The notes: a model not told the origin generated them from the letters alone. A stretch of 46,808 bases of DNA from Rhizobium sp. Q54 (GCA_945907245.1 CAMDTB010000023.1:1-46808), one strand, 5' to 3'. Positions 1,841 to 13,230 are shown, counted from the first letter of the stretch. Translations and numbers: made by a program.

Positions 1841-2809
1841 GTGACACTCGAACAGATCGGCGTCATCAGCAATCCGGGAAGCACCCGGATGAACAAGATG
1901 TTGCAGGACTTCCGGCAGGTGGTTGGGGGTTACCACGGCATCGCGTACCGCGAGCTCTCCAACATCGACGACATGGAACACATCCTGCGCGATTTCGCGG
2001 CGCAGGGGATCAGGCTGCTCATTCTCAGCGGCGGTGACGGCACCCTGCAGTTGGGCGTTACCGCGCTGATGAACCATGACATCTTCGACGAGCCGCCAGT
2101 GATCTCGATCCTGCCGGGCGGCCGCACCAACATGGTGGCCGAGGCGCTGGGCATGTTCGGCTCGCCCAGCGAATGCCTGCGCGAGGTCGTCGACGGCGCG
2201 GTAAGCGGCGAGTTGAAGACCGTCGACCTGCCGTTCATCCGGCTGCAGGTGAGGCCGGACGCGACGCCGGTGTATGGCGCGTTCTTCGGAGCCGCGACCA
2301 TCGTCCGCGGCATGGAATTCACCCGCGAGGTGATCTATCCGCTGGGGCTGCCCAACTTCCTGTCCCACGCCATCGCCATCGTCTACCTGGTGGCGAACGC
2401 GGCGTGGCCGTTCAAGGGACCGAAGGCGCCGATGCGGGCCGAGCCCCTGTACGTCAATTTCGGCGACAGCACGCCCGAGGCGAAGTCATACATGATCGTG
2501 CTGGTGACCACGCTCAACCGGCTGATCCTGGGCCTTTCGGCGGCCTCGGCCGTCGGTGAGGGCGCGCTGCGCTACACCAGCATCGAATATACCTTCTCGG
2601 CGGCGGCGCGCGCGGCCTGGACCTTCCTGTTCGGCCGGCCGTCGACCAAGCTGGTGCGCGGTCTTGTCCGCCGGCGCATGTACGGGGTCGAGATCCGCAC
2701 CAGCAGCCCGGTGACCCTGGACGGCGAGTTCTTCGTGCCCGATCCCGCCCATCCGGTGAAGCTGGAGGCGACGCCGCCCTTCACCTTCGTCAGGCTGGAA
2801 GACGAATGA
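1841..2809 (+). CDS. cpgB: Diacylglycerol-kinase-family lipid kinase, likely ceramide kinase (CpgB-like)
   Basis: The N-terminal half has the catalytic-domain motif 'LSGGDGTLQLG' (residues about 65-75) and the nucleotide-loop segment 'LPGGRTNMVAEAL' (about 92-104), which define the DAG/sphingosine/ceramide kinase fold. The C-terminal half is the beta-rich domain with 'LDGEFF'. At 322 residues it has normal family length. In Caulobacter a homologous kinase, CpgB, phosphorylates ceramide as the first step to ceramide phosphoglycerate and lies beside spt. The same neighbourhood here favours ceramide over diacylglycerol as substrate. The start is GTG with a weak upstream AGG. The stop overlaps the next start as ATGA, so translation of the two is probably coupled. 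It could instead be a general lipid kinase such as YegS; location argues against that. Confidence 0.78.
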   Translation: MTLEQIGVISNPGSTRMNKMLQDFRQVVGGYHGIAYRELSNIDDMEHILRDFAAQGIRLLILSGGDGTLQLGVTALMNHDIFDEPPVISILPGGRTNMVAEALGMFGSPSECLREVVDGAVSGELKTVDLPFIRLQVRPDATPVYGAFFGAATIVRGMEFTREVIYPLGLPNFLSHAIAIVYLVANAAWPFKGPKAPMRAEPLYVNFGDSTPEAKSYMIVLVTTLNRLILGLSAASAVGEGALRYTSIEYTFSAAARAAWTFLFGRPSTKLVRGLVRRRMYGVEIRTSSPVTLDGEFFVPDPAHPVKLEATPPFTFVRLEDE

Positions 2810-3762
2810 CCAGCGAGGGCGAGGATTTCCGGACTGTCGTCGACCGGGTCCTAATCGAACTCTACCAGCCGCTCTTTCCCGCCGCGGAAGCCGCCGCGAA
2901 GGATCTGCTCGCCGCGCATCCAGGTGCATCGGCCATCCTGTTCTATGGCTCGTGCCTGCGCACGGGCTCAGACGACGAGAAGATCCTCGATTTCTACGTG
3001 CTGGCCGATGACCTCGCCGAGGCCAACGGCAGCACCGTGCTGGGCTTCTTCAACCGTGTCCTGCCGCCCAACGTGTTCTACCGGGAAACGCCGTTCGACG
3101 GCCGGATGGTGCGCACAAAATACGCGTTGATGTCCACCGGCGACTTCGTCGAGTCCATGAGCCTCGACTGCCTCAATCCCAGTTTCTGGGCCCGGTTTGC
3201 CCAACCGTGTGCACTGGCCTGGGTGCGTGACCCGCGCACGGCCGGCCAGGTGGCGGAAGCGGTCGCCCAGGCGGTGATTACGGCGGCATCGACGGTGGCG
3301 CCGGTGCATCCGTCGCCGTTCACCGCCGACGAGCTTTGGTCCCATGTGTTCCAGATGACCTATGCTGCCGAGCTCCGCTCCGAGAACGCGGCCACCAAGG
3401 GCGGCGAGATTTTCCGGGAATATCCCGAGCGTTACCGTTCGCTGGCGGTGCCGGCGATGCGCTCCAGCGGCATCCAGGTCGACGTCGACGAACATGGCTA
3501 CCTGCGCACCACTGTGCCTCCCGCGCGGGCACGGCAGGAGATGCGTCGGTGGCGCACCCGGCGGTTGCAGGGCAAGACGCTCAGCCTGCTGCGGCTGATC
3601 AAGGGCGCCTTCACCTTCACCGGCGGGCTCGACTACCTGGCGTGGAAGATGCGCCGCCATTCAGGCGTGGAGATCAGGGTTAAGCCGTGGCACCGCCGCC
3701 ATCCGATCATCGGCGGCCTAGTGCTGATCCGGAAGGCAAGGCGCAAGGGCGGGTTCCGCTAG
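2806..3762 (+). CDS. Nucleotidyltransferase-like protein of the sphingolipid head-group pathway
   Basis: This 318-residue protein starts inside the lipid kinase stop codon. Near residue 46 it has 'LFYGSCLRTG' followed by 'ILDFYVLAD'. This resembles the G-S...D-x-D core of polymerase-beta-type nucleotidyltransferases, but the second acidic residue of the D-h-D pair is Tyr ('DFY'), unless the nearby 'ADD' replaces it. The remainder is helical, and the C-terminus is very basic ('WHRRHP...KARRKGG'), which may bind the membrane surface. Genes next to the ceramide kinase in Caulobacter (cpgA and cpgC) are needed to turn ceramide phosphate into ceramide phosphoglycerates. I infer this gene belongs to that step, but cannot say which of the two it matches. 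Its stop shares a CTAG with the stop of the opposing gene. Confidence 0.62.
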   Translation: MTSEGEDFRTVVDRVLIELYQPLFPAAEAAAKDLLAAHPGASAILFYGSCLRTGSDDEKILDFYVLADDLAEANGSTVLGFFNRVLPPNVFYRETPFDGRMVRTKYALMSTGDFVESMSLDCLNPSFWARFAQPCALAWVRDPRTAGQVAEAVAQAVITAASTVAPVHPSPFTADELWSHVFQMTYAAELRSENAATKGGEIFREYPERYRSLAVPAMRSSGIQVDVDEHGYLRTTVPPARARQEMRRWRTRRLQGKTLSLLRLIKGAFTFTGGLDYLAWKMRRHSGVEIRVKPWHRRHPIIGGLVLIRKARRKGGFR

Positions 3763-4964
3763 GCCGCCGGCTGGCTCAGCACGCTGTTGGACCGGGCAAG
3801 GCGCTCGAACGTATCGACGATCGTCCTGACCTGTTCCTCGGTGTGCGCGGCGCTCAGGCTGCAGCGCAACAGGTTCAGGCCCTGTGGCGTCGCGGGCGGC
3901 ATCGCCAGGTTGACGTAGACACCGTTGTTGAGCAGCTGCTCCCACAGCCGCACCGCCATGTCGCGGTCGTCGATCTTCACGGCGACCACCGGGCTGGGCG
4001 CGGCGCCCAGGTTGAAGCCGGCGCTGGTAAGGCCTTCGTGAAGCTGCCTGGCGTTGCGCCACAGCTTCTCGCGGTGCTGCGGCTCCGAGCCCAGGATCTC
4101 GACCGCCTTCAGCGCCGAGGCGACAACCGATGGCGGCAGCGAGGCGGTGAACATGTAGGGGCGGGCGGCGAGGCGCAGGATCTCGAATTTCGGGTGGTTC
4201 GACACACAATAGCCGCCGATGGTGCCGACGCTCTTGCTGAAGGTGCCGACGACGAACTCGACGTCGTGCATGACGCCCGCTTCCTGCACGACGCCGCAGC
4301 CGGTCTCGCCGAACACGCCGAGGGAATGGGCCTCGTCGACCATCAGCGCCGCGCCGTGGCGGTTCTTGACCTCGACCAGTTCCTTCATGGGCGCCTTGTC
4401 GCCCAGCATGGAATAGAGGCCTTCGATCACGATCAGCACGTTGGCGTCGGTGCCCAGCCGCCTCAGCCGCTTGTCCAGGTCGTCGGGATCGTTGTGCTTG
4501 AAGCGTACGATGGTGGCATCCGACATCTTGCAGGCGTCGTAGATGCTGGCGTGGCTGTCGGCGTCGATGACGATGACGTCGTCCTTGCCGGCGATCGTAC
4601 CGATGCTCGCGATGTTGGCGAGGAACCCGGTGCTGAACACCATGCAGTGCTCGGCGCCATAGAGCCTGGCGATCGCCGCCTCCAGCGCCTTGTGGCCGGT
4701 ATAGGTGCCGTTGAGCACCCGCGAACCGGTGGTGCCGGTGCCGGCGGCATCCAGCGCCTCGTGCGCCGCCTTGATGCAGCGCGGGTCGAAGGTCAGGCCC
4801 AGATAGTTGTTGGTGCCGGCAAGGATCGTCCGCTTGCCCTTGATCACCGCCTCGGTGGGCGAGATGATCTGCTCCATGACCACGTCGATCGGGCTGGAGT
4901 CGACGAAGCCCAACGCTTCGCGGGCCCGGATCATCGGGTCGAACTTGTCGAACAGGTCAGCCAT
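3759..4964 (-). CDS. spt: Serine palmitoyltransferase
   Basis: This is an alpha-oxoamine synthase of 401 residues that condenses serine with a long-chain acyl thioester to give a 3-oxo sphingoid base, using PLP. The PLP lysine is K244 in 'GTFSKSVGTIGGY'. The stacking histidine is H138 in 'DADSHAS', and 'MVDEAHSLGVFG' carries D210 and H213. 'GTFSKSVGTIGGY', 'SNHPKF' and 'FTASLPPSVVA' are typical of bacterial Spt rather than of BioF, Kbl or HemA. It is the last gene of the operon aasR-cerR-acpR-spt and overlaps the acyl carrier protein gene by 8 bases, which suggests the acyl donor is acyl-ACP delivered by that partner. The enzyme should be soluble and cytoplasmic, as in Sphingomonas and Caulobacter. 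Confidence 0.93.
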   Translation of the reverse strand: MADLFDKFDPMIRAREALGFVDSSPIDVVMEQIISPTEAVIKGKRTILAGTNNYLGLTFDPRCIKAAHEALDAAGTGTTGSRVLNGTYTGHKALEAAIARLYGAEHCMVFSTGFLANIASIGTIAGKDDVIVIDADSHASIYDACKMSDATIVRFKHNDPDDLDKRLRRLGTDANVLIVIEGLYSMLGDKAPMKELVEVKNRHGAALMVDEAHSLGVFGETGCGVVQEAGVMHDVEFVVGTFSKSVGTIGGYCVSNHPKFEILRLAARPYMFTASLPPSVVASALKAVEILGSEPQHREKLWRNARQLHEGLTSAGFNLGAAPSPVVAVKIDDRDMAVRLWEQLLNNGVYVNLAMPPATPQGLNLLRCSLSAAHTEEQVRTIVDTFERLARSNSVLSQPAA

Positions 4965-5202
4965 TCTTCTTCTCGATCAGCTGGTTGACGGCGTCTGCGA
5001 CCTGGCCGACGGTCTCCAGGTCGGGCAGCAGGTTGAGCGGGATGATGATGTCGAAGTGATCTTCCATCTCGGCGACGAAATCCATCACGGTCAGGGAGTC
5101 CCACTCCAGGTCGGTGGCGAAGGTGCTCGACGCCGTCACCGCCACGCCCTTGCGGTTGTGGGGCGCGATCAGGGTGACGATCTCATCCAGCGCGTTGCTC
5201 AT
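4957..5202 (-). CDS. acpR: Acyl carrier protein dedicated to sphingolipid synthesis
   Basis: An 81-residue acidic helical protein with the phosphopantetheine attachment serine S36 in 'LEWDSLTVMDF'. The usual motif is D-S-L; the Trp before the Asp also occurs in the special Acp found beside Spt. The start is the ATG at 5202 ('MSNALDEI'). A longer reading from 5268 would add 22 residues unlike any ACP. Its last bases overlap the spt start, so the two are probably made together. In Caulobacter the equivalent AcpR is loaded by the acyl-ACP synthetase AasR and feeds Spt. Holo-ACP formation would need a phosphopantetheinyl transferase encoded elsewhere. Confidence 0.9.
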   Translation of the reverse strand: MSNALDEIVTLIAPHNRKGVAVTASSTFATDLEWDSLTVMDFVAEMEDHFDIIIPLNLLPDLETVGQVADAVNQLIEKKNG

Positions 5203-5280
5203 GAAGGGGCGGCCTGCCTGCTGTTGTCCGGAGCGCGGTATATAGCACCGCAAGGCATGCAAGCCCAACCGGCAATGGCG

Positions 5281-6213
5281 TCAGGGCAGATCGCCATGGG
5301 CTTCGTACCAGGAACGGGTTTCGGCCAGGCCGCGCGATGCCGGAATCGCGGCGCGCCAGCCGGCGTCGGCCAGCGTGGTATCGCGGCAGACCCAGTCGGC
5401 GTGGGTCAGTTCGCGCACCTTTTCCGGCGTCAGCATCGGCACGCGGCCGGAGGCCAGGCTGGCCAGCCAGATCGCGCCGCCCGCCAACCGCAGGACGCCG
5501 CCGGGGACGAACACCGGTCGGTGGAAGCCCGGCGCGCCATGGATCATCTCCAGCACCTCGGCAAACGCGTAGCCCTTGGGTTCGCCGTCATGGACTTCGG
5601 CGACCCTGCCGGACATGGCGGGCATGTCGATGGTAGCGACGATGGCGGCGGCCAGGTCCGCGACATGAACCAGCGACGTACGGTGTCCGGCGGAGCCGGG
5701 CAGGAATGGGCGCCGCAGCCGCGCGGCCTTGAAGAACGCCAGCGTCTCCCGGTCGCCGGGTCCGTAGACCGCCGGCGGGCGAAGGATGGTCCAGTCGAGC
5801 CCTGGCGCGGCCTTCACCAGCACTTCCGCCGCCGCCTTGCTGGCCGCATAGCTGGACAGCTCCGGTTCCCGGGCGGCGATGGACGACAGATGGATGAAAC
5901 GCGTGGGACGACCCGCCAGCGCCGCGATCAGCTTCGCGGTCCCGCCCTTGTTGATCTCGAAGAAGTCGGCGCGCCGGCGGGCCTTGATCAGCCCCGCCAC
6001 ATGGACCACGGCATCGGCGCCGGTGACGAGCGCCCTGAGCGCCAGTTCATCGGTCAGGTTGCCGGCGATCCAGGTCACGTCGTCGCGAAATGTCTGCTCG
6101 CTGCGGGCCAGCGCCGAGACCCGGAAACCCTGTTGCACAAGCGTGTCGAGAACCGCGCGGCCGACGAAGCCCGTCGCACCGGTCAGCGCGACGCGTCTTG
6201 CGGGTTCGGTCAT
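5281..6213 (-). CDS. cerR: NAD(P)-dependent epimerase-type reductase, ceramide reductase
   Basis: An extended short-chain dehydrogenase of 310 residues. The N-terminal Rossmann loop is 'TGATGFVG' (G12-G18), and the catalytic pair is Y122 and K126 in 'SSYAASKAAAE'. The preceding strand ends in 'IHLSSIAA', which supplies the active-site serine. 'RPPAVYGPGD' near residue 145 is typical of the epimerase branch. In Caulobacter the homolog CerR in the same gene order reduces the 3-oxo group after N-acylation, giving ceramide. It lies 4 bases from the acyl ligase stop and about 80 bases ahead of the ACP start, within one operon. The assignment rests mostly on context, since the fold alone does not fix the substrate. 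Confidence 0.82.
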   Translation of the reverse strand: MTEPARRVALTGATGFVGRAVLDTLVQQGFRVSALARSEQTFRDDVTWIAGNLTDELALRALVTGADAVVHVAGLIKARRRADFFEINKGGTAKLIAALAGRPTRFIHLSSIAAREPELSSYAASKAAAEVLVKAAPGLDWTILRPPAVYGPGDRETLAFFKAARLRRPFLPGSAGHRTSLVHVADLAAAIVATIDMPAMSGRVAEVHDGEPKGYAFAEVLEMIHGAPGFHRPVFVPGGVLRLAGGAIWLASLASGRVPMLTPEKVRELTHADWVCRDTTLADAGWRAAIPASRGLAETRSWYEAHGDLP

Positions 6214-6217
6214 GGGA

Positions 6218-7999
6218 TCACTCCCCAGCCGCGGCCTTCAGTGGCGCGGCGTCTTCCCAGGGATAGGGGTCGCTGCCGTCGAGCGGCTCGAGCAGGCCGG
6301 AAATATAGCTCGCCCGGGCCTTCACCCGGCTCAGCTTGCCCGAGGACGTGCGCGGCAGGCTGCGCGGCTTTACCAGCGCGACGCGGCAGGAGATGCCCAC
6401 GTCCTTCTGTACCCGCCGCTTGATCTCGTCGACCAGCTTGCGGCGCTCATCCAGCTCGCTGACGCGAGGCTGGACCAGGATCATGGCCACTTCCTCGTTG
6501 CCGCGTCCCGGCACCGAGATGGCGGCGCTATCGCCCGAGCGTAGGCCTTCGATCTGCTCGACGGTCCACTCGATGTCCTGCGGCCAGTGGTTGCGGCCGT
6601 TGAGGATGATCAGGTCCTTGGCGCGGCCGACGATATACAGCGCCTTGCCGAGCATGTAGCCCATGTCGCCGGTGTCGAGCCAGCCTTCGTCATCGAGCAC
6701 GCTGCGGGTGCCATCGGGATCGTTGAAGTAGCCGGACATGACCGACGGCCCGCGCACATAGATCTGACCCACGCCACGCTCGCCGACCGTGTCGCCGTTC
6801 TCGTCGCGGATGTCGATGTCGTATTCTGGCATCGGGATGCCGCAGTTGACGACTTCACGCGTCTTCGCGGTGTCGGCGGTCGCCGGCACCGCCCGGTGCT
6901 CGAGCGACAGCAGGCTCTCGTCGACCACGTCGACCTCGATGCCGCTGTTGATGGGCATGAAGCTCACTGCCAGCGTGCATTCCGCCAGGCCGTAGCTGGA
7001 CAGGAATGCCTTGTCGTTGAATCCGGCGGGCGCGAAGGTGCGGCTGAACTCGCGCATGGAATCGGCGCGGATCATCTCGGCGCCCAGGCCGGCAACGCGC
7101 CACGAGCTCAGATCAAGTTCGACGACCTGCTCGGGCTTGACCCGCCGCGCGCACAGCTCGTAGCCGAAGGTCGGGCTGTAGGTGACGGTCGCCTTGTGGC
7201 GGCTGATCAGCTCCAGCCAGAGCAGCGGGCGACGCGCGAAGAACTCGGTGGGCAGATAGTCGGCGGTGACCTGCACCGCGACCAGGGTCAGCATGGCGCC
7301 GACCAGGCCCATATCGTGATAGAATGGCAGCCACGACATCATCCGGTCGCCTTCGCGCACCTCGATGCCATGGGCCGCGTTGCCATGGCAGTTCGACATC
7401 ACCGAGGTCTGGGTGACCGCGACGCCATGCGGAAAGCGGGTGCTGCCCGACGAGTATTGCAGATAGCAGATGTCGCCGGGGCTCTGCGGCTGGAGATCTG
7501 GGGTGCCTTCCGGCAGCGCGAGCAGTTCCTCGCTGGTCATCACCAGCTTCATGCCCAGCCCATCGGCCGCTTGCAGCAGCAGTTCCGACATGCCGGTCGG
7601 CGCGATGGCGGCGGCGGCGTGGCAGCTGATCATCTGCTTGCCGAGCTGCTCGACATAGCCGTCCTTGCCGCCGAAAGAGGTCGGCAGCGGCAGCGGCACC
7701 GGCAACAGGCCGGCATACTGGCAGCCGAAGAAGGCGACGATGAAGTCCGGGGTCGTGTCGGCGATCAACGCCACGCGGCAGCCACGCTCGAGACCGGCGG
7801 TGATCAGCCGACGCGCTGTGGCCAGCGCCCGCTCCCGCAGGTCGGCGAAGCTGAGGACCTCGACAAGGTCGCCGCGCGCCGAATAGAAATTGAAACCACG
7901 GACGCCCTGCGCCGCATAGTCCAGCGCATCGACCAAAGTGGCAAAGTCAGCCATGCGCCGCGGCAGGCCGGGATCATCCGTCGGTAATGGTGTCAGCAT
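6218..7999 (-). CDS. aasR: Fatty acyl-AMP ligase / acyl-ACP synthetase
   Basis: An adenylate-forming enzyme of 593 residues. The phosphate-binding loop is 'YSSGSTRFPHG' (residues 182-192), where 'SGST' is kept but the common 'GxPKG' reads 'RFPHG'. 'SYGLAECTLAVSF' and 'EGWLDTGDMGYM' are the A5 and A7 regions. 'LPRTSSGKLSRVKAR' near the end holds the catalytic lysine. The closest family is the FAAL type, which transfers acyl-AMP to a carrier protein rather than to CoA. With acpR two genes downstream, the likely job is loading fatty acid onto that ACP for Spt, as AasR does in Caulobacter. As first gene of the operon it has a possible promoter at 8062-8090. No transmembrane segment is visible. 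Confidence 0.87.
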   Translation of the reverse strand: MLTPLPTDDPGLPRRMADFATLVDALDYAAQGVRGFNFYSARGDLVEVLSFADLRERALATARRLITAGLERGCRVALIADTTPDFIVAFFGCQYAGLLPVPLPLPTSFGGKDGYVEQLGKQMISCHAAAAIAPTGMSELLLQAADGLGMKLVMTSEELLALPEGTPDLQPQSPGDICYLQYSSGSTRFPHGVAVTQTSVMSNCHGNAAHGIEVREGDRMMSWLPFYHDMGLVGAMLTLVAVQVTADYLPTEFFARRPLLWLELISRHKATVTYSPTFGYELCARRVKPEQVVELDLSSWRVAGLGAEMIRADSMREFSRTFAPAGFNDKAFLSSYGLAECTLAVSFMPINSGIEVDVVDESLLSLEHRAVPATADTAKTREVVNCGIPMPEYDIDIRDENGDTVGERGVGQIYVRGPSVMSGYFNDPDGTRSVLDDEGWLDTGDMGYMLGKALYIVGRAKDLIILNGRNHWPQDIEWTVEQIEGLRSGDSAAISVPGRGNEEVAMILVQPRVSELDERRKLVDEIKRRVQKDVGISCRVALVKPRSLPRTSSGKLSRVKARASYISGLLEPLDGSDPYPWEDAAPLKAAAGE

Positions 8000-8880: not shown

Positions 8881-9369
8881 ATGCGTCTACCGCTCGCCGG
8901 ACTGTATGTCTTCCTGCTGCTCTCCGGCGGTGTCGCCTCGGCTTTCTCGTCGGACCCGCCGGACGCGGGTGTCGCCCAGTCGCTGCCGCTTGCGCCGCTG
9001 ACCGTCGAGACACGGGGCGGCCGCGTGTCGCTTCAGCTGCAGGTCGCCGATACCGATGCCCGCCGCCAGACCGGGCTGATGTACCGCGCCTCCCTGCCGG
9101 AAAAGGAGGGCATGTTGTTTCTCTTCGAGGAAGTCCGGCCCGTGGCTTTCTGGATGAAGAACACGGTCTTGTCCCTCGACATCATCTTCATCGACGACGC
9201 GGGCAGGGTGATAAACATCGCGCGGGGCACCACGCCTCATTCGCTGCAGCGGATCCCGGCGGACGGCCCGACGCGGGCCGTTCTCGAGCTCAACGCGGGC
9301 GCCAGCGCGCGGCTGGGTATCGACGTGGGCGACCGCGTACTTTACGACGCACTTGAAGGCCCCCGGTAA
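8881..9369 (+). CDS. Secreted DUF192 protein
   Basis: The family signature is clear: 'RQTGLMYRASLPEKEGMLF', then 'FWMKNTVLSLDIIFID' and 'GRVINIA', ending with a short 'GDRVLYD' strand. DUF192 proteins are small beta-sandwich proteins of unknown function, often exported. The start at 8881 was chosen because GAGGA lies 5 bases upstream. An ATG at 8869 overlaps the recX stop but has no ribosome site. From 8881 the protein begins with a signal peptide (hydrophobic core 'LYVFLLLSGGVA', cleavage after 'ASA'). The mature domain is about 140 residues. Close spacing to recX suggests co-transcription, but no functional link is known. Confidence 0.87.
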   Translation: MRLPLAGLYVFLLLSGGVASAFSSDPPDAGVAQSLPLAPLTVETRGGRVSLQLQVADTDARRQTGLMYRASLPEKEGMLFLFEEVRPVAFWMKNTVLSLDIIFIDDAGRVINIARGTTPHSLQRIPADGPTRAVLELNAGASARLGIDVGDRVLYDALEGPR

Positions 9370-9454: not shown

Positions 9455-9484
9455 TTGACGCTGGGAATCATTGGCCTGTTTACT
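9455..9484 (+). promoter_or_regulatory. Weak candidate promoter for the CphA-like/sulfotransferase operon
   Basis: TTGACG at 9455-9460 is a good -35 match. The best -10 candidates are TTTACT after 18 bases and TACTAG after 20, both poor. It lies about 100 bases ahead of the CphA-like start. Confidence 0.22.
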
Positions 9485-9582: not shown

Positions 9583-11712
9583 ATGCCTCTCCTTGAACTC
9601 AAGGAAATCAAGCGACTGGGCTATGGCTTCGGCACCAGGCAACAGGCGTTGGTCGCGACCGCCTATCAGGCCGCCGCGGCGGATCTTCCTGCGCACCAGG
9701 ATGCATCGGCACTGGTGGACAAGCTGCGCGCGTGCCTGCCGGATGGCAATGGCGCGAGCCTGTCCGCCGCCGGCGACGGTCTTTCCCTGGTCGACCTTGC
9801 GAACTGGGCCGGAGCGCTCCAGCGCCGGGCGCGCATTCCGGTGTTCGCGCCGCCGATCCTGCTGTCGCGTGGCCCCACGGAGCGCGGTGGGGAAGCCATC
9901 AGCTTTCTGCTTCCCTATGCCGATATGGATGCGGCCCGAATGGCGCTCGTTTTCATGGTCGAACTGGTCAACGGCTTTTGCGATGCCGCTGCGAAAGGCG
10001 AGACCGGGCCAGCATTGGACAGCGTGGCGACGAGGATCGACGAGGTCGTCGGCAAGCTCTCCGCCCGCGCGCCAAACGGGGTCAACAACTACCGGATCTG
10101 CGAAGCGGCTTACAATGAACGCATCCCGTTCGCCATGTTCTTTCGCGACATGCTGTTGCTCGGCGAGGGTGTCAGGCTGAGGCGCATGCTCAGCACGATC
10201 ACCGACGAGGTCAGCGCCATCGGCGTCGCCATTGCGCGCAACAAGATGCAGACGGCCACGTCGCTGCGGCAGGCGGGCTTTCCGACCGTGAGGCATGCCG
10301 TGGCCACATCAGAGGACCACGCCGTCACCCTTGCGGGCCAGACCGGATTTCCCACGGTCGTAAAGCCGGCGGACGCCGATGGCGGTGCCGGGGTATCGGC
10401 AGGCGTGATGACCGAGGCGGGGGTCAGGACAGCCTACAAGGCGGCGCGGGAGGTCTCGAAGAACGTCATCGTCGAGGCGTTCGTCCCGGGGAACAACTAC
10501 CGGGTCCATGTCTGCAACGGCAGGATCGTCAAGACCACCTTGCGTCGTCCCGGCGGCGTGGAGGGCGATGGTGTCAGCAGCATCCGAGACCTGGTCGAGG
10601 GGCTGAAGGACAGCGCCCAGTCCAAAAGGCGCCGGCTGGAGCGCGGGCGCTATCTGCTGGAACTTGACGACGAGGCAAAAGAGCTGCTCGCCGAGGCTGG
10701 ACTGGGCGAGGCATCGGTTCCTGCCGCGGGAGAGTTCATAGCGCTGCGTCGCCGGTCAAACGTCTCGACCGGCGGCACCACGATGGATGTTAAAGGCACG
10801 CTGCATCCTGACAACGAGGACCTGTTCCGGCGAGCCGCCAATCTGCTCGGGCTCGATTTCGCGGGGATCGACTACATCTCGCCGGACATCTCGAAGTCCT
10901 GGTGCGAGGTTCCATCGGCGATCTGCGAGATCAATGCCCAGCCGCAGCTCGGCAACGACCTGAACCCGACGCTCTACAACGAATTGCTGCGCGAGTACGT
11001 AGGCCCGGCGCGCGTGCCGTGGGTTCTCGTGCTGGGAGCCGATGGCGCCGCCGTGCGGACGCGGTCGCTGGGCGAGCGCATACGAAAAAGCGTTGACCAG
11101 CGCGCATCACCGGCGGTGGTCGCCTCCGCCAGCGGCGTCTGGTCCGGTGCGTCCCGCATCTCCGGGGTGCAAGGGACGCTGGCGGCTGCTTGCGAGAGCG
11201 TCGTGCTGGGCCGCTTTGCCGCCGCCGCGGTCGTGGTCGCCGACCCGGCGATGGTCGTCGGTTGCGGGCTGCCAACGGAAGACCTGGAATTCGTCGTGCT
11301 GACCAACGAGCCTCGGGCGTCTGCGAGCGATTTCGAGCTCTGCCGGAAGCTCGTCGGGCCGCATATCCGCAAGGGGCTGCTGCTGGAGCCTCGGGATCCG
11401 GCGCTCCCTGTGCTCAGGGCGGAGCTGCCGGCGCAGAAATTGTTCCTGGTCTGTCCGGGACCAGCGGATCAGTCCATTATCGCGCACCTGTCCGAAGGTG
11501 GTCGTGCGGTGTGGCTCGAGAGCAAGGACGGATCAGCCGACTACCGAATCGTCATGGGCGCGGGCGACACGCGGGTTTCGCTCGGCTCGGTCGGCGGCGC
11601 TGGAGCTGATCCTCGGATCGTCTGGGATGCCCTGGTCGCCCGCGTGATCCAGGTCCATTTCCCGGCCCCCGGTAAGCCCGCCGATCTTCAGCAAGGAAGC
11701 ATGAGCAAATGA
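9583..11712 (+). CDS. Cyanophycin-synthetase-like ATP-grasp ligase with degenerate Mur-ligase domain
   Basis: This 709-residue protein follows the CphA layout. The N-terminal domain ends in 'LLLGEGVRLRRMLSTITDE' and 'SAIGVAIARNK' (about 191-221), the usual junction to the ATP-grasp domain. That domain (about 222-470) keeps 'FPTVVKP' with K261, 'RSNVSTGGTTMDV' (391-403), and the metal-binding 'CEINAQP' with E449 and N451. It should therefore activate a carboxylate and form an amide bond. The C-terminal part (about 476-709) aligns by eye with the Mur-ligase domain of CphA, but the P-loop 'GTNGKTT' reads 'GADGAAV' (485-491) and the domain is much shorter than the usual 400 residues. Cyanobacterial CphA2 also has an inactive, shortened second half. 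The gene overlaps a sulfotransferase by ATGA. Substrate is unknown; no cyanophycinase or isoaspartyl dipeptidase is nearby. Confidence 0.82.
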   Translation: MPLLELKEIKRLGYGFGTRQQALVATAYQAAAADLPAHQDASALVDKLRACLPDGNGASLSAAGDGLSLVDLANWAGALQRRARIPVFAPPILLSRGPTERGGEAISFLLPYADMDAARMALVFMVELVNGFCDAAAKGETGPALDSVATRIDEVVGKLSARAPNGVNNYRICEAAYNERIPFAMFFRDMLLLGEGVRLRRMLSTITDEVSAIGVAIARNKMQTATSLRQAGFPTVRHAVATSEDHAVTLAGQTGFPTVVKPADADGGAGVSAGVMTEAGVRTAYKAAREVSKNVIVEAFVPGNNYRVHVCNGRIVKTTLRRPGGVEGDGVSSIRDLVEGLKDSAQSKRRRLERGRYLLELDDEAKELLAEAGLGEASVPAAGEFIALRRRSNVSTGGTTMDVKGTLHPDNEDLFRRAANLLGLDFAGIDYISPDISKSWCEVPSAICEINAQPQLGNDLNPTLYNELLREYVGPARVPWVLVLGADGAAVRTRSLGERIRKSVDQRASPAVVASASGVWSGASRISGVQGTLAAACESVVLGRFAAAAVVVADPAMVVGCGLPTEDLEFVVLTNEPRASASDFELCRKLVGPHIRKGLLLEPRDPALPVLRAELPAQKLFLVCPGPADQSIIAHLSEGGRAVWLESKDGSADYRIVMGAGDTRVSLGSVGGAGADPRIVWDALVARVIQVHFPAPGKPADLQQGSMSK

Positions 11713-13085
11713 CGCTGGAGATGCAGGCGGTCGGACAGGGCTTTGAGTTTTCCGCAGCGGCGGCGCGCATCGCGGCGCTGCGCGAGTCGGTGTACAATTG
11801 GCCGGTGGAAGCGGGGTTTCTCGGCGCGGTCGGCGAAATCGTCATGGTGCTGAGCAGTCCACGCTCCGGGTCGAGCCTGCTGGCGTCGGTGCTGCGGCGC
11901 ACCGACCAGGTGATGAACTTCCAGGGGGCGATCACACCGTTCCTCGGCATGGCCGACCTGCGCTATCCGGTCAGCGGTGACACCGATGCGCTCGAGGCCC
12001 GGCACGCGTCGCTCGCTCCCTGGCTCGAGCCCTACCTGGCGCAGGAGTGCGGCTATCCGCTCGACCGGCTGGAGAGCCAGGCGGACCGCGATCAGTTCGC
12101 CATCGACCTGGCGATCCGGCTGTGCATGCAATGGCCCGACATCGCTTTCGGGATCGAGGAGGTGCGCTCCGCCACCAACCATGCGCTCGACGAGACCGTG
12201 CGGGACTTCGGCTGGAGCGACGGGGAATTCCGCGATCCCAAGCTGTTCCATGCGCTGCTGATCCGGCGTCTGCGCCCCATCTATCCGGAACTGAACCCGT
12301 ATCTCTACGATATCGACGCCGCGATGATTCGCGACCTGATGCCCGATGCCCCGGTGGTCGTCACCCTGCCGTCGGGCCGGTTCGTCGAGATGCCGCCGCT
12401 GATCACCATCCGGCCGTGGCGCCGGGCAACCACCGCCGACCTGCGGAGCAAGCCGCTGGTGATGAAGACCGTCGCCAACACCTTCCGCATGCCGTTCCTG
12501 TCGGCGCTGTTTCCATCGGCGCGGATGCGGGTGATGCACCTGACCCGAAGCGTCGCCGGCAGCGCCAACGGCATGTATGACGGCTGGATGCATGCGGGCT
12601 TCTGGGCCGCGCACATCGTTGACGGCGACCTTGCCATTCCCGGCTATTCGGACAGATTTCCCGATTGGGGCAGGCACTGGTGGAAGTTCGGCCTGTTTCC
12701 CGGCTGGCAGGCCCACCGCGCCAGCAGTCCCGTGGACATCGCCGCGGCGCACTGGCGCACCTGCCACGAAACCATCCTGGAATGGCTCGCCGCCCATCCC
12801 GGGCAGGCGGCGGACTCGATCCGGGTGCATGGCGAGGATTTCCTCGACAACCCGCACAAGAAGGCCGGGACGCTCGCACGGATCGCCGACTGGCTGGGCG
12901 TCGGCATGGACGAAGGCCTGTCCTACGCCGCCGAGAACGACCTGCCGCTGCAGCTCGCCACCGTCAAGCCGGCGCCGCAGCGCTGGCGCAAGCGCTATGA
13001 CGAGCTGGCCCACATCCTGAAGGATCCGCGCAACGGTGACCTCATGGTGCGGCTGGGATACGATCCGGACCCGGAGACCTGGTAA
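11709..13085 (+). CDS. Sulfotransferase-family protein
   Basis: The 458-residue product has the 5'-phosphosulfate loop 'LSSPRSGSSLLASVL' (P51-S56 core) of PAPS-dependent sulfotransferases. Further on, 'RVMHLTRSVAGSANGMYDGW' near residue 280 is a candidate 3'-phosphate-binding segment. A later 'SIRVHGEDFLDNPHKK' matches the end of many family members. No signal peptide or membrane helix is visible, so it should act in the cytoplasm. Its start lies inside the stop codon of the CphA-like ligase, so the two are almost certainly translated together. The obvious inference is sulfation of the ligase product or of a shared precursor. The family has many acceptors, so the substrate cannot be read from sequence. 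It is longer than typical 300-residue members because of an insert around residues 70-250. Confidence 0.8.
   Translation: MTLEMQAVGQGFEFSAAAARIAALRESVYNWPVEAGFLGAVGEIVMVLSSPRSGSSLLASVLRRTDQVMNFQGAITPFLGMADLRYPVSGDTDALEARHASLAPWLEPYLAQECGYPLDRLESQADRDQFAIDLAIRLCMQWPDIAFGIEEVRSATNHALDETVRDFGWSDGEFRDPKLFHALLIRRLRPIYPELNPYLYDIDAAMIRDLMPDAPVVVTLPSGRFVEMPPLITIRPWRRATTADLRSKPLVMKTVANTFRMPFLSALFPSARMRVMHLTRSVAGSANGMYDGWMHAGFWAAHIVDGDLAIPGYSDRFPDWGRHWWKFGLFPGWQAHRASSPVDIAAAHWRTCHETILEWLAAHPGQAADSIRVHGEDFLDNPHKKAGTLARIADWLGVGMDEGLSYAAENDLPLQLATVKPAPQRWRKRYDELAHILKDPRNGDLMVRLGYDPDPETW

Positions 13086-13153: not shown

Positions 13154-13230
<77 letters not shown>

Follow-up and report, generated by a model that had tools for sequence, protein, structure and literature searches.

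A predicted single-site relative of cyanophycin synthetase adjoining a predicted sulfotransferase in one alphaproteobacterial genus

The gene pair described here, from a stretch of 46,808 nucleotides of Rhizobium sp. Q54 DNA (GCA_945907245.1 CAMDTB010000023.1:1-46808; analysed whole and referred to as the window), joins a ligase of the CphA family (LIG) to a protein of a sulfotransferase family (ST). On balance, we favour the reading that the pair makes a small sulfated amino-acid amide or peptide, with the amide bond formed by LIG and the sulfate added by ST; that the two proteins act in one pathway is probable. CphA-type enzymes are usually taken for storage-polymer synthetases. LIG contrasts with this picture, as its second catalytic site appears to be dead, the residues that bind cyanophycin are gone and its gene is locked to that of a sulfotransferase. 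In our judgement, the pair would operate as an amide ligase with one site, independent of NRPS, that supplies a sulfotransferase. Among the papers searched, none names both cyanophycin synthetase and sulfotransferase.

Table 1. Position of the gene pair, its domains and motifs, and the boundaries of the insert in the window.
Feature	Position	Strand	Description
DUF192 gene	8887..9369	+	Left neighbour and insert boundary, outside the system; PF02643, E 5e-33; adjoins tRNA-Pro in genomes without the pair
Promoter-like block TTGACG ... TTTACT	9455..9484	+	5' of LIG; in all four carrier genomes, absent from two empty sites
LIG	9583..11712	+	709 aa; predicted single-site CphA-derived ATP-grasp ligase
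LIG N domain	9583..10062	+	Residues ~1-160; divergent; boundary by homology
LIG ATP-grasp domain	10063..11007	+	Residues ~161-475; K221, K261, R307, R321, N393, S395, E449, N451 kept; A216, G457 changed
LIG degenerate Mur-ligase domain	11008..11709	+	Residues ~476-709; fold match and loop alignment
ST	11709..13085	+	458 aa; Sulfotransfer_3-family sulfotransferase (predicted); PF13469 31.5 bits, cut-off 27
ST 5'-phosphosulfate loop LSSPRSGSSLL	11850..11882	+	Residues 48-58; core SSxRxGSS conserved in six homologues
ST 3'-phosphate motif region HLTRxxxxSxNGxxDGW	12534..12587	+	Residues 276-293; also in deltaproteobacterial and haloarchaeal homologues
tRNA-Pro(TGG)	13154..13230	+	Right neighbour and insert boundary; ARAGORN

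Both reading frames are complete and lie exactly where an earlier note on this DNA had placed them. The ATGA overlap that it described is found in two of the four genomes that carry the pair, whereas in the other two ST begins 4 nt past the LIG stop. A Shine-Dalgarno-like stretch (AAGGAA) lies 9-10 nt upstream of ST and is kept in all four. From synonymous and non-synonymous counts among these genomes, dN/dS is 0.19-0.27 for LIG and 0.06-0.17 for ST. Purifying selection acts on both genes and, with ratios this low, the pair does not consist of chance reading frames.

Although the earlier note rightly assigned LIG to the CphA family, it overlooked a third, degenerate domain, which sequence and structural model alike place in the CphA Mur-ligase fold with its ATP loop destroyed. 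LIG thereby shares the N, ATP-grasp and Mur-ligase-fold architecture of CphA1 (7lgn, 7lg5, 7wac), and a profile of 12 LIG relatives aligns across the ATP-grasp and Mur-ligase parts of the solved CphA1 structures. The AlphaFold model of LIG is well predicted only at residues ~477-695, the C-terminal domain, and poor elsewhere; this C-terminal model matches the CphA1 Mur-ligase domain with a Z of 16.9 (3.8 A over 213 residues) and MurE with a Z of about 14. In its ATP loop (~11029-11052), the GTNGKTT of CphA1 has become GADGAAV, and the motif is likewise lost in three orthologues. The arginine-adding Mur site of LIG is therefore predicted to be dead, leaving at most one working site. The distance from CphA1 is also seen in the curated profiles: LIG reaches 257.1 bits against PRK14016 (E 3e-76, over the N and ATP-grasp part), far under the cut-off of 877, and 234 bits against TIGR02068, where the cut-off is 850.

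The ATP-grasp site has fared differently from the Mur site. The equivalents of K220, K261, R309, R323, N394 and S396 of SuCphA1 are kept in LIG as K221, K261, R307, R321, N393 and S395, respectively, and all of the catalytic residues checked (K221, K261 and R307) are intact, with the role of R309 taken from the structure paper (PMC9427784). When dN/dS is resolved by domain, ATP-grasp is under the strongest constraint (0.10-0.17), while the N and Mur-like domains both fall at 0.29-0.39. LIG is thus very likely, as a prediction from its sequence, a working single-site amide ligase. With one of its two catalytic domains already dead, LIG might instead have ceased to be an enzyme and serve ST as a scaffold or regulator, but the intact catalytic residues and the constraint on the domain that holds them make this very improbable.

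The pocket around this site is only partly that of CphA1. In SuCphA1, R323, N394 and S396 line the aspartate pocket together with R458, which contacts the alpha-carboxylate of the incoming aspartate, and E215 contacts the C-terminal arginine of cyanophycin (PMC9427784). Most of the aspartate-binding residues are kept in LIG, but E215 and R458 are lost, replaced by A216 and G457. Another difference from CphA1 is that the LIG N domain lacks the HxxEH motif found in N domains that make primers (PMC9262961). These changes suggest that the substrate of LIG differs from that of CphA. Searches for Peptidase_S51, the cyanophycinase family, gave no match in any of the seven genomes of the genus; control genomes did match. 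The earlier note had seen no cyanophycinase nearby and had argued against ordinary storage cyanophycin, and both points hold, the latter on the dead Mur site and the missing cyanophycinase family. Because the Mur loop, E215 and R458 are lost and the genus has no cyanophycinase, LIG does not appear to be a cyanophycin synthetase (CphA1); its scores under the curated cut-offs also set it apart from CphA1.

Known CphA2 enzymes are cyanobacterial and repolymerise beta-Asp-Arg. LIG is CphA2-like by architecture, since it has one ATP-grasp site, predicted to work, and an inactive Mur-ligase part, and the CphA2 structures (7ta5, 8fxh, 8fxi) match the profile of LIG relatives with a shortened C-terminal part. 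As CphA2 too has one working site (PMC10206079), LIG could in theory polymerise ready-made beta-linked dipeptide-like units at its single site, with ST decorating the chain. By sequence, however, LIG is not CphA2-like: it matches CphA1 with 184.6 bits and the two CphA2s with 123.2 and 114.7 bits. Moreover, LIG has an alanine in place of E215, the residue that binds the arginine of the chain, and the seven genomes yielded no cyanophycinase partner as a source or recycler of dipeptides, so we regard such a polymerase as unlikely. Only one of the two ligase sites of CphA is intact and the residues that grip cyanophycin are gone; for this reason the sulfated polymer suggested in the earlier note is unsupported, whereas the sulfated peptide or amide that it also named is the most economical reading. 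A related ATP-grasp domain is found in N-acetylglutaminylglutamine synthetase (TIGR03103), an enzyme that makes one amide bond. LIG scores 137 bits against this family, under the cut-off of 569, and unlike that enzyme gives no GNAT domain match.

The second protein of the pair is a Sulfotransfer_3-family member and a predicted sulfotransferase. The PAPS-binding loop seen in the earlier note is confirmed, as ST passes the family cut-off and keeps both PAPS phosphate-binding motifs (SSPRSGSSLL and HLTRxxxxSxNG). It differs from the family (PF13469) by a long insert that separates the two motifs, and belongs to a small subgroup marked by HLTRxxxxSxNGxxDGW. The serine found at R+8 in other family members is a glycine in ST, and the serine at R+5 is kept. 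The AlphaFold model of ST is poor throughout (mean pLDDT 48.5) and was set aside. A gene for APS kinase, which makes PAPS, is present in all seven genomes of the genus.

Close relatives of ST (89-98%) were found in the genus only. Next come 39% relatives in two Deltaproteobacteria MAGs, and then homologues at 27-32% on plasmids of haloarchaea and Streptomyces, which share all or part of the HLTRxxxxSxNGxxDGW region. Eight annotated records of haloarchaeal plasmids were examined, and in each the ST homologue adjoins cysC (APS kinase) and a YqcI/YcgG gene, often with a small hypothetical protein, forming a recurrent cassette (L148, L149, L154-L159). The YqcI/YcgG family is described as one of heme-dependent guanidine N-hydroxylases (PMC12866846), and the cassette has the appearance of a pathway dedicated to making a sulfated guanidine compound. 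Guanidine N-hydroxylation was considered as a substrate chemistry common to all of these proteins; suggestive as it is in haloarchaea, it is not directly transferable, because the window's genome has no YqcI/YcgG gene, and the distribution of this family does not follow the pair. The deltaproteobacterial homologues have a second sulfotransferase, methyltransferases and an arginine-deiminase-family gene among their neighbours, and an NRPS-like frame, judged by eye, lies near the Streptomyces homologue. Together, these neighbourhoods may indicate that small compounds derived from amino acids are sulfated. At L061 6829-8838 and L060 2062-4077, DNA gyrase B ATPase domains are fused in one frame to a SAM methyltransferase; the surrounding cluster also encodes B12-radical-SAM and arginine-deiminase-family proteins as well as sulfotransferases.

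The pair occurs in four of the seven genomes of the genus, with LIG directly upstream of ST in each. The three genomes that lack ST also lack a LIG orthologue, and no genome has one alone. All three retain the order recX - DUF192 - tRNA-Pro - NDUFS4-like - tRNA-Arg. The site between DUF192 and tRNA-Pro is empty in G002 and G005. G006 holds a different gene there (G006:C111, L126 7423-8505), acyltransferase-like by eye, and the spot may therefore be a small insertion hot spot. The conserved portion of the 213 nt gap between DUF192 and LIG looks promoter-like, and its block is a putative promoter of LIG; a sigma-70 consensus scan upstream of LIG found no site. We rejected the block as a displaced tRNA promoter, since tRNA-Pro retains an upstream element of its own whether or not the insert is present. 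A RiPP-type precursor peptide 5' of LIG was also dismissed, with no conserved small reading frame in the gap. Given a separate block for LIG and a tRNA that keeps its own element, the insert would be a two-gene piece with its own start signals, gained or lost as a whole. The earlier note expected the two genes to be made together, and joint gain and loss, tight spacing and a conserved upstream block of their own indeed make them one unit.

The pairing is one evolutionary event inherited within one genus. Because the event is single and the flanking genes also keep their order, adjacency alone is weak and co-inheritance does not count as repeated independent evidence. LIG and ST might thus be accidental neighbours, brought together by insertion and acting on unrelated substrates, and their differing rates of evolution (identity among the carriers is 89-98% for ST and 67-91% for LIG) would fit such an origin. 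However, four species keep both genes at a spacing of -4 to +4 nt with the Shine-Dalgarno-like stretch conserved, neither gene occurs without the other, and the genus has a second ligase-sulfotransferase operon, so that we give chance proximity little credence. This operon (G001:C1, L129 238-6717) runs LIG paralogue - AlkP-like - GT1 - Sulfotransfer_4 - Sulfotransfer_2, its genes spaced by -4 to +38 nt, and is an independent link between the two activities, with sulfotransferases unrelated to ST. It sits at a contig start and may continue further.

A sphingolipid cluster lies divergent to the pair (window 1841-7999) and encodes a DAG-kinase-like protein, an unknown 318-aa protein, serine palmitoyltransferase, ACP, SDR and fatty acyl-AMP ligase. 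With the serine palmitoyltransferase and acyl-AMP ligase genes 1.6-6 kb from the pair, the cluster could make a ceramide to which, or to whose head group, LIG would add an amino acid and ST a sulfate. The cluster is conserved across the genus, however, and is present in all five relatives with a readable locus, three of which lack the pair; it is therefore not specific to the pair. In addition, recX and DUF192 intervene, and the conserved block 5' of LIG belongs to the pair itself. The tie to sphingolipids was considered and found unsupported, and we judge it improbable.

How widespread is the pair? When 385 sampled genomes from the class and 398 from the phylum were searched with the ST profile, no further full-length relative emerged. 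The weaker matches examined were mostly fusions of an aspartyl/asparaginyl beta-hydroxylase domain to Sulfotransfer_3, as in L062 and L063, which place hydroxylation and sulfation in one protein. The adjacency across alphaproteobacteria on which the earlier note had staked its proposal thus extends past this genome to four species of one genus, but not beyond the genus among the genomes sampled, and is far short of widespread. The LIG profile, in turn, detected CphA-like ligases that lack the Mur ATP loop in many alphaproteobacteria outside the genus, where their gene neighbourhoods vary. Neither the other single-site ligases surveyed in alphaproteobacteria nor the paralogues of the genus were seen to have an ST of this type beside them.

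Within the genus, each genome has two to eight CphA-like genes, most of whose products also lack the Mur ATP loop. An exception with an intact loop, GSMGKTT (L045 7126-10125), is perhaps the only two-site CphA relative of the window's genome. The neighbours of these paralogues include methyltransferases and a chorismate-binding enzyme, glycosyltransferases and a phosphodiesterase-like protein, and contractile-injection-like genes; one ligase (L139 6185-8275) immediately adjoins tail-sheath-like genes of the latter kind. The paralogue at G000:C17 (35007-36596; L043 7026-8576) is broken by stops and frame, apparently either through sequencing error or as a decaying gene, and intact copies stand in the same operon in G001 and G003.

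We propose that the pair is a self-contained two-step module leading to a small sulfated amide or short peptide. LIG, as a descendant of CphA that keeps the ATP-grasp site only, would convert a carboxylate into an acyl phosphate and couple this to an amine on a second substrate, forming one amide bond. Its substrate probably bears a carboxylate or similar acid in place of the beta-carboxylate of aspartate, and the old Mur-ligase domain would be structural only. With PAPS as the donor, ST would then sulfate a hydroxyl or N-hydroxyl group on the LIG product or, alternatively, on one of the LIG substrates beforehand. In this scheme, we infer the single amide bond, the order of the steps and the chemical class of the product.

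It is a tentative thought, and a doubtful one, that CphA has diversified in this genus into a toolkit of amide ligases with a single site, many of them in small operons with differing tailoring enzymes, which would give small amides and peptides independently of NRPS; sulfation would have been recruited at least twice, through unrelated sulfotransferases. If the pair does make a defined sulfated amide, the single-site CphA relatives of alphaproteobacteria would be an unexplored, NRPS-free source of natural products.
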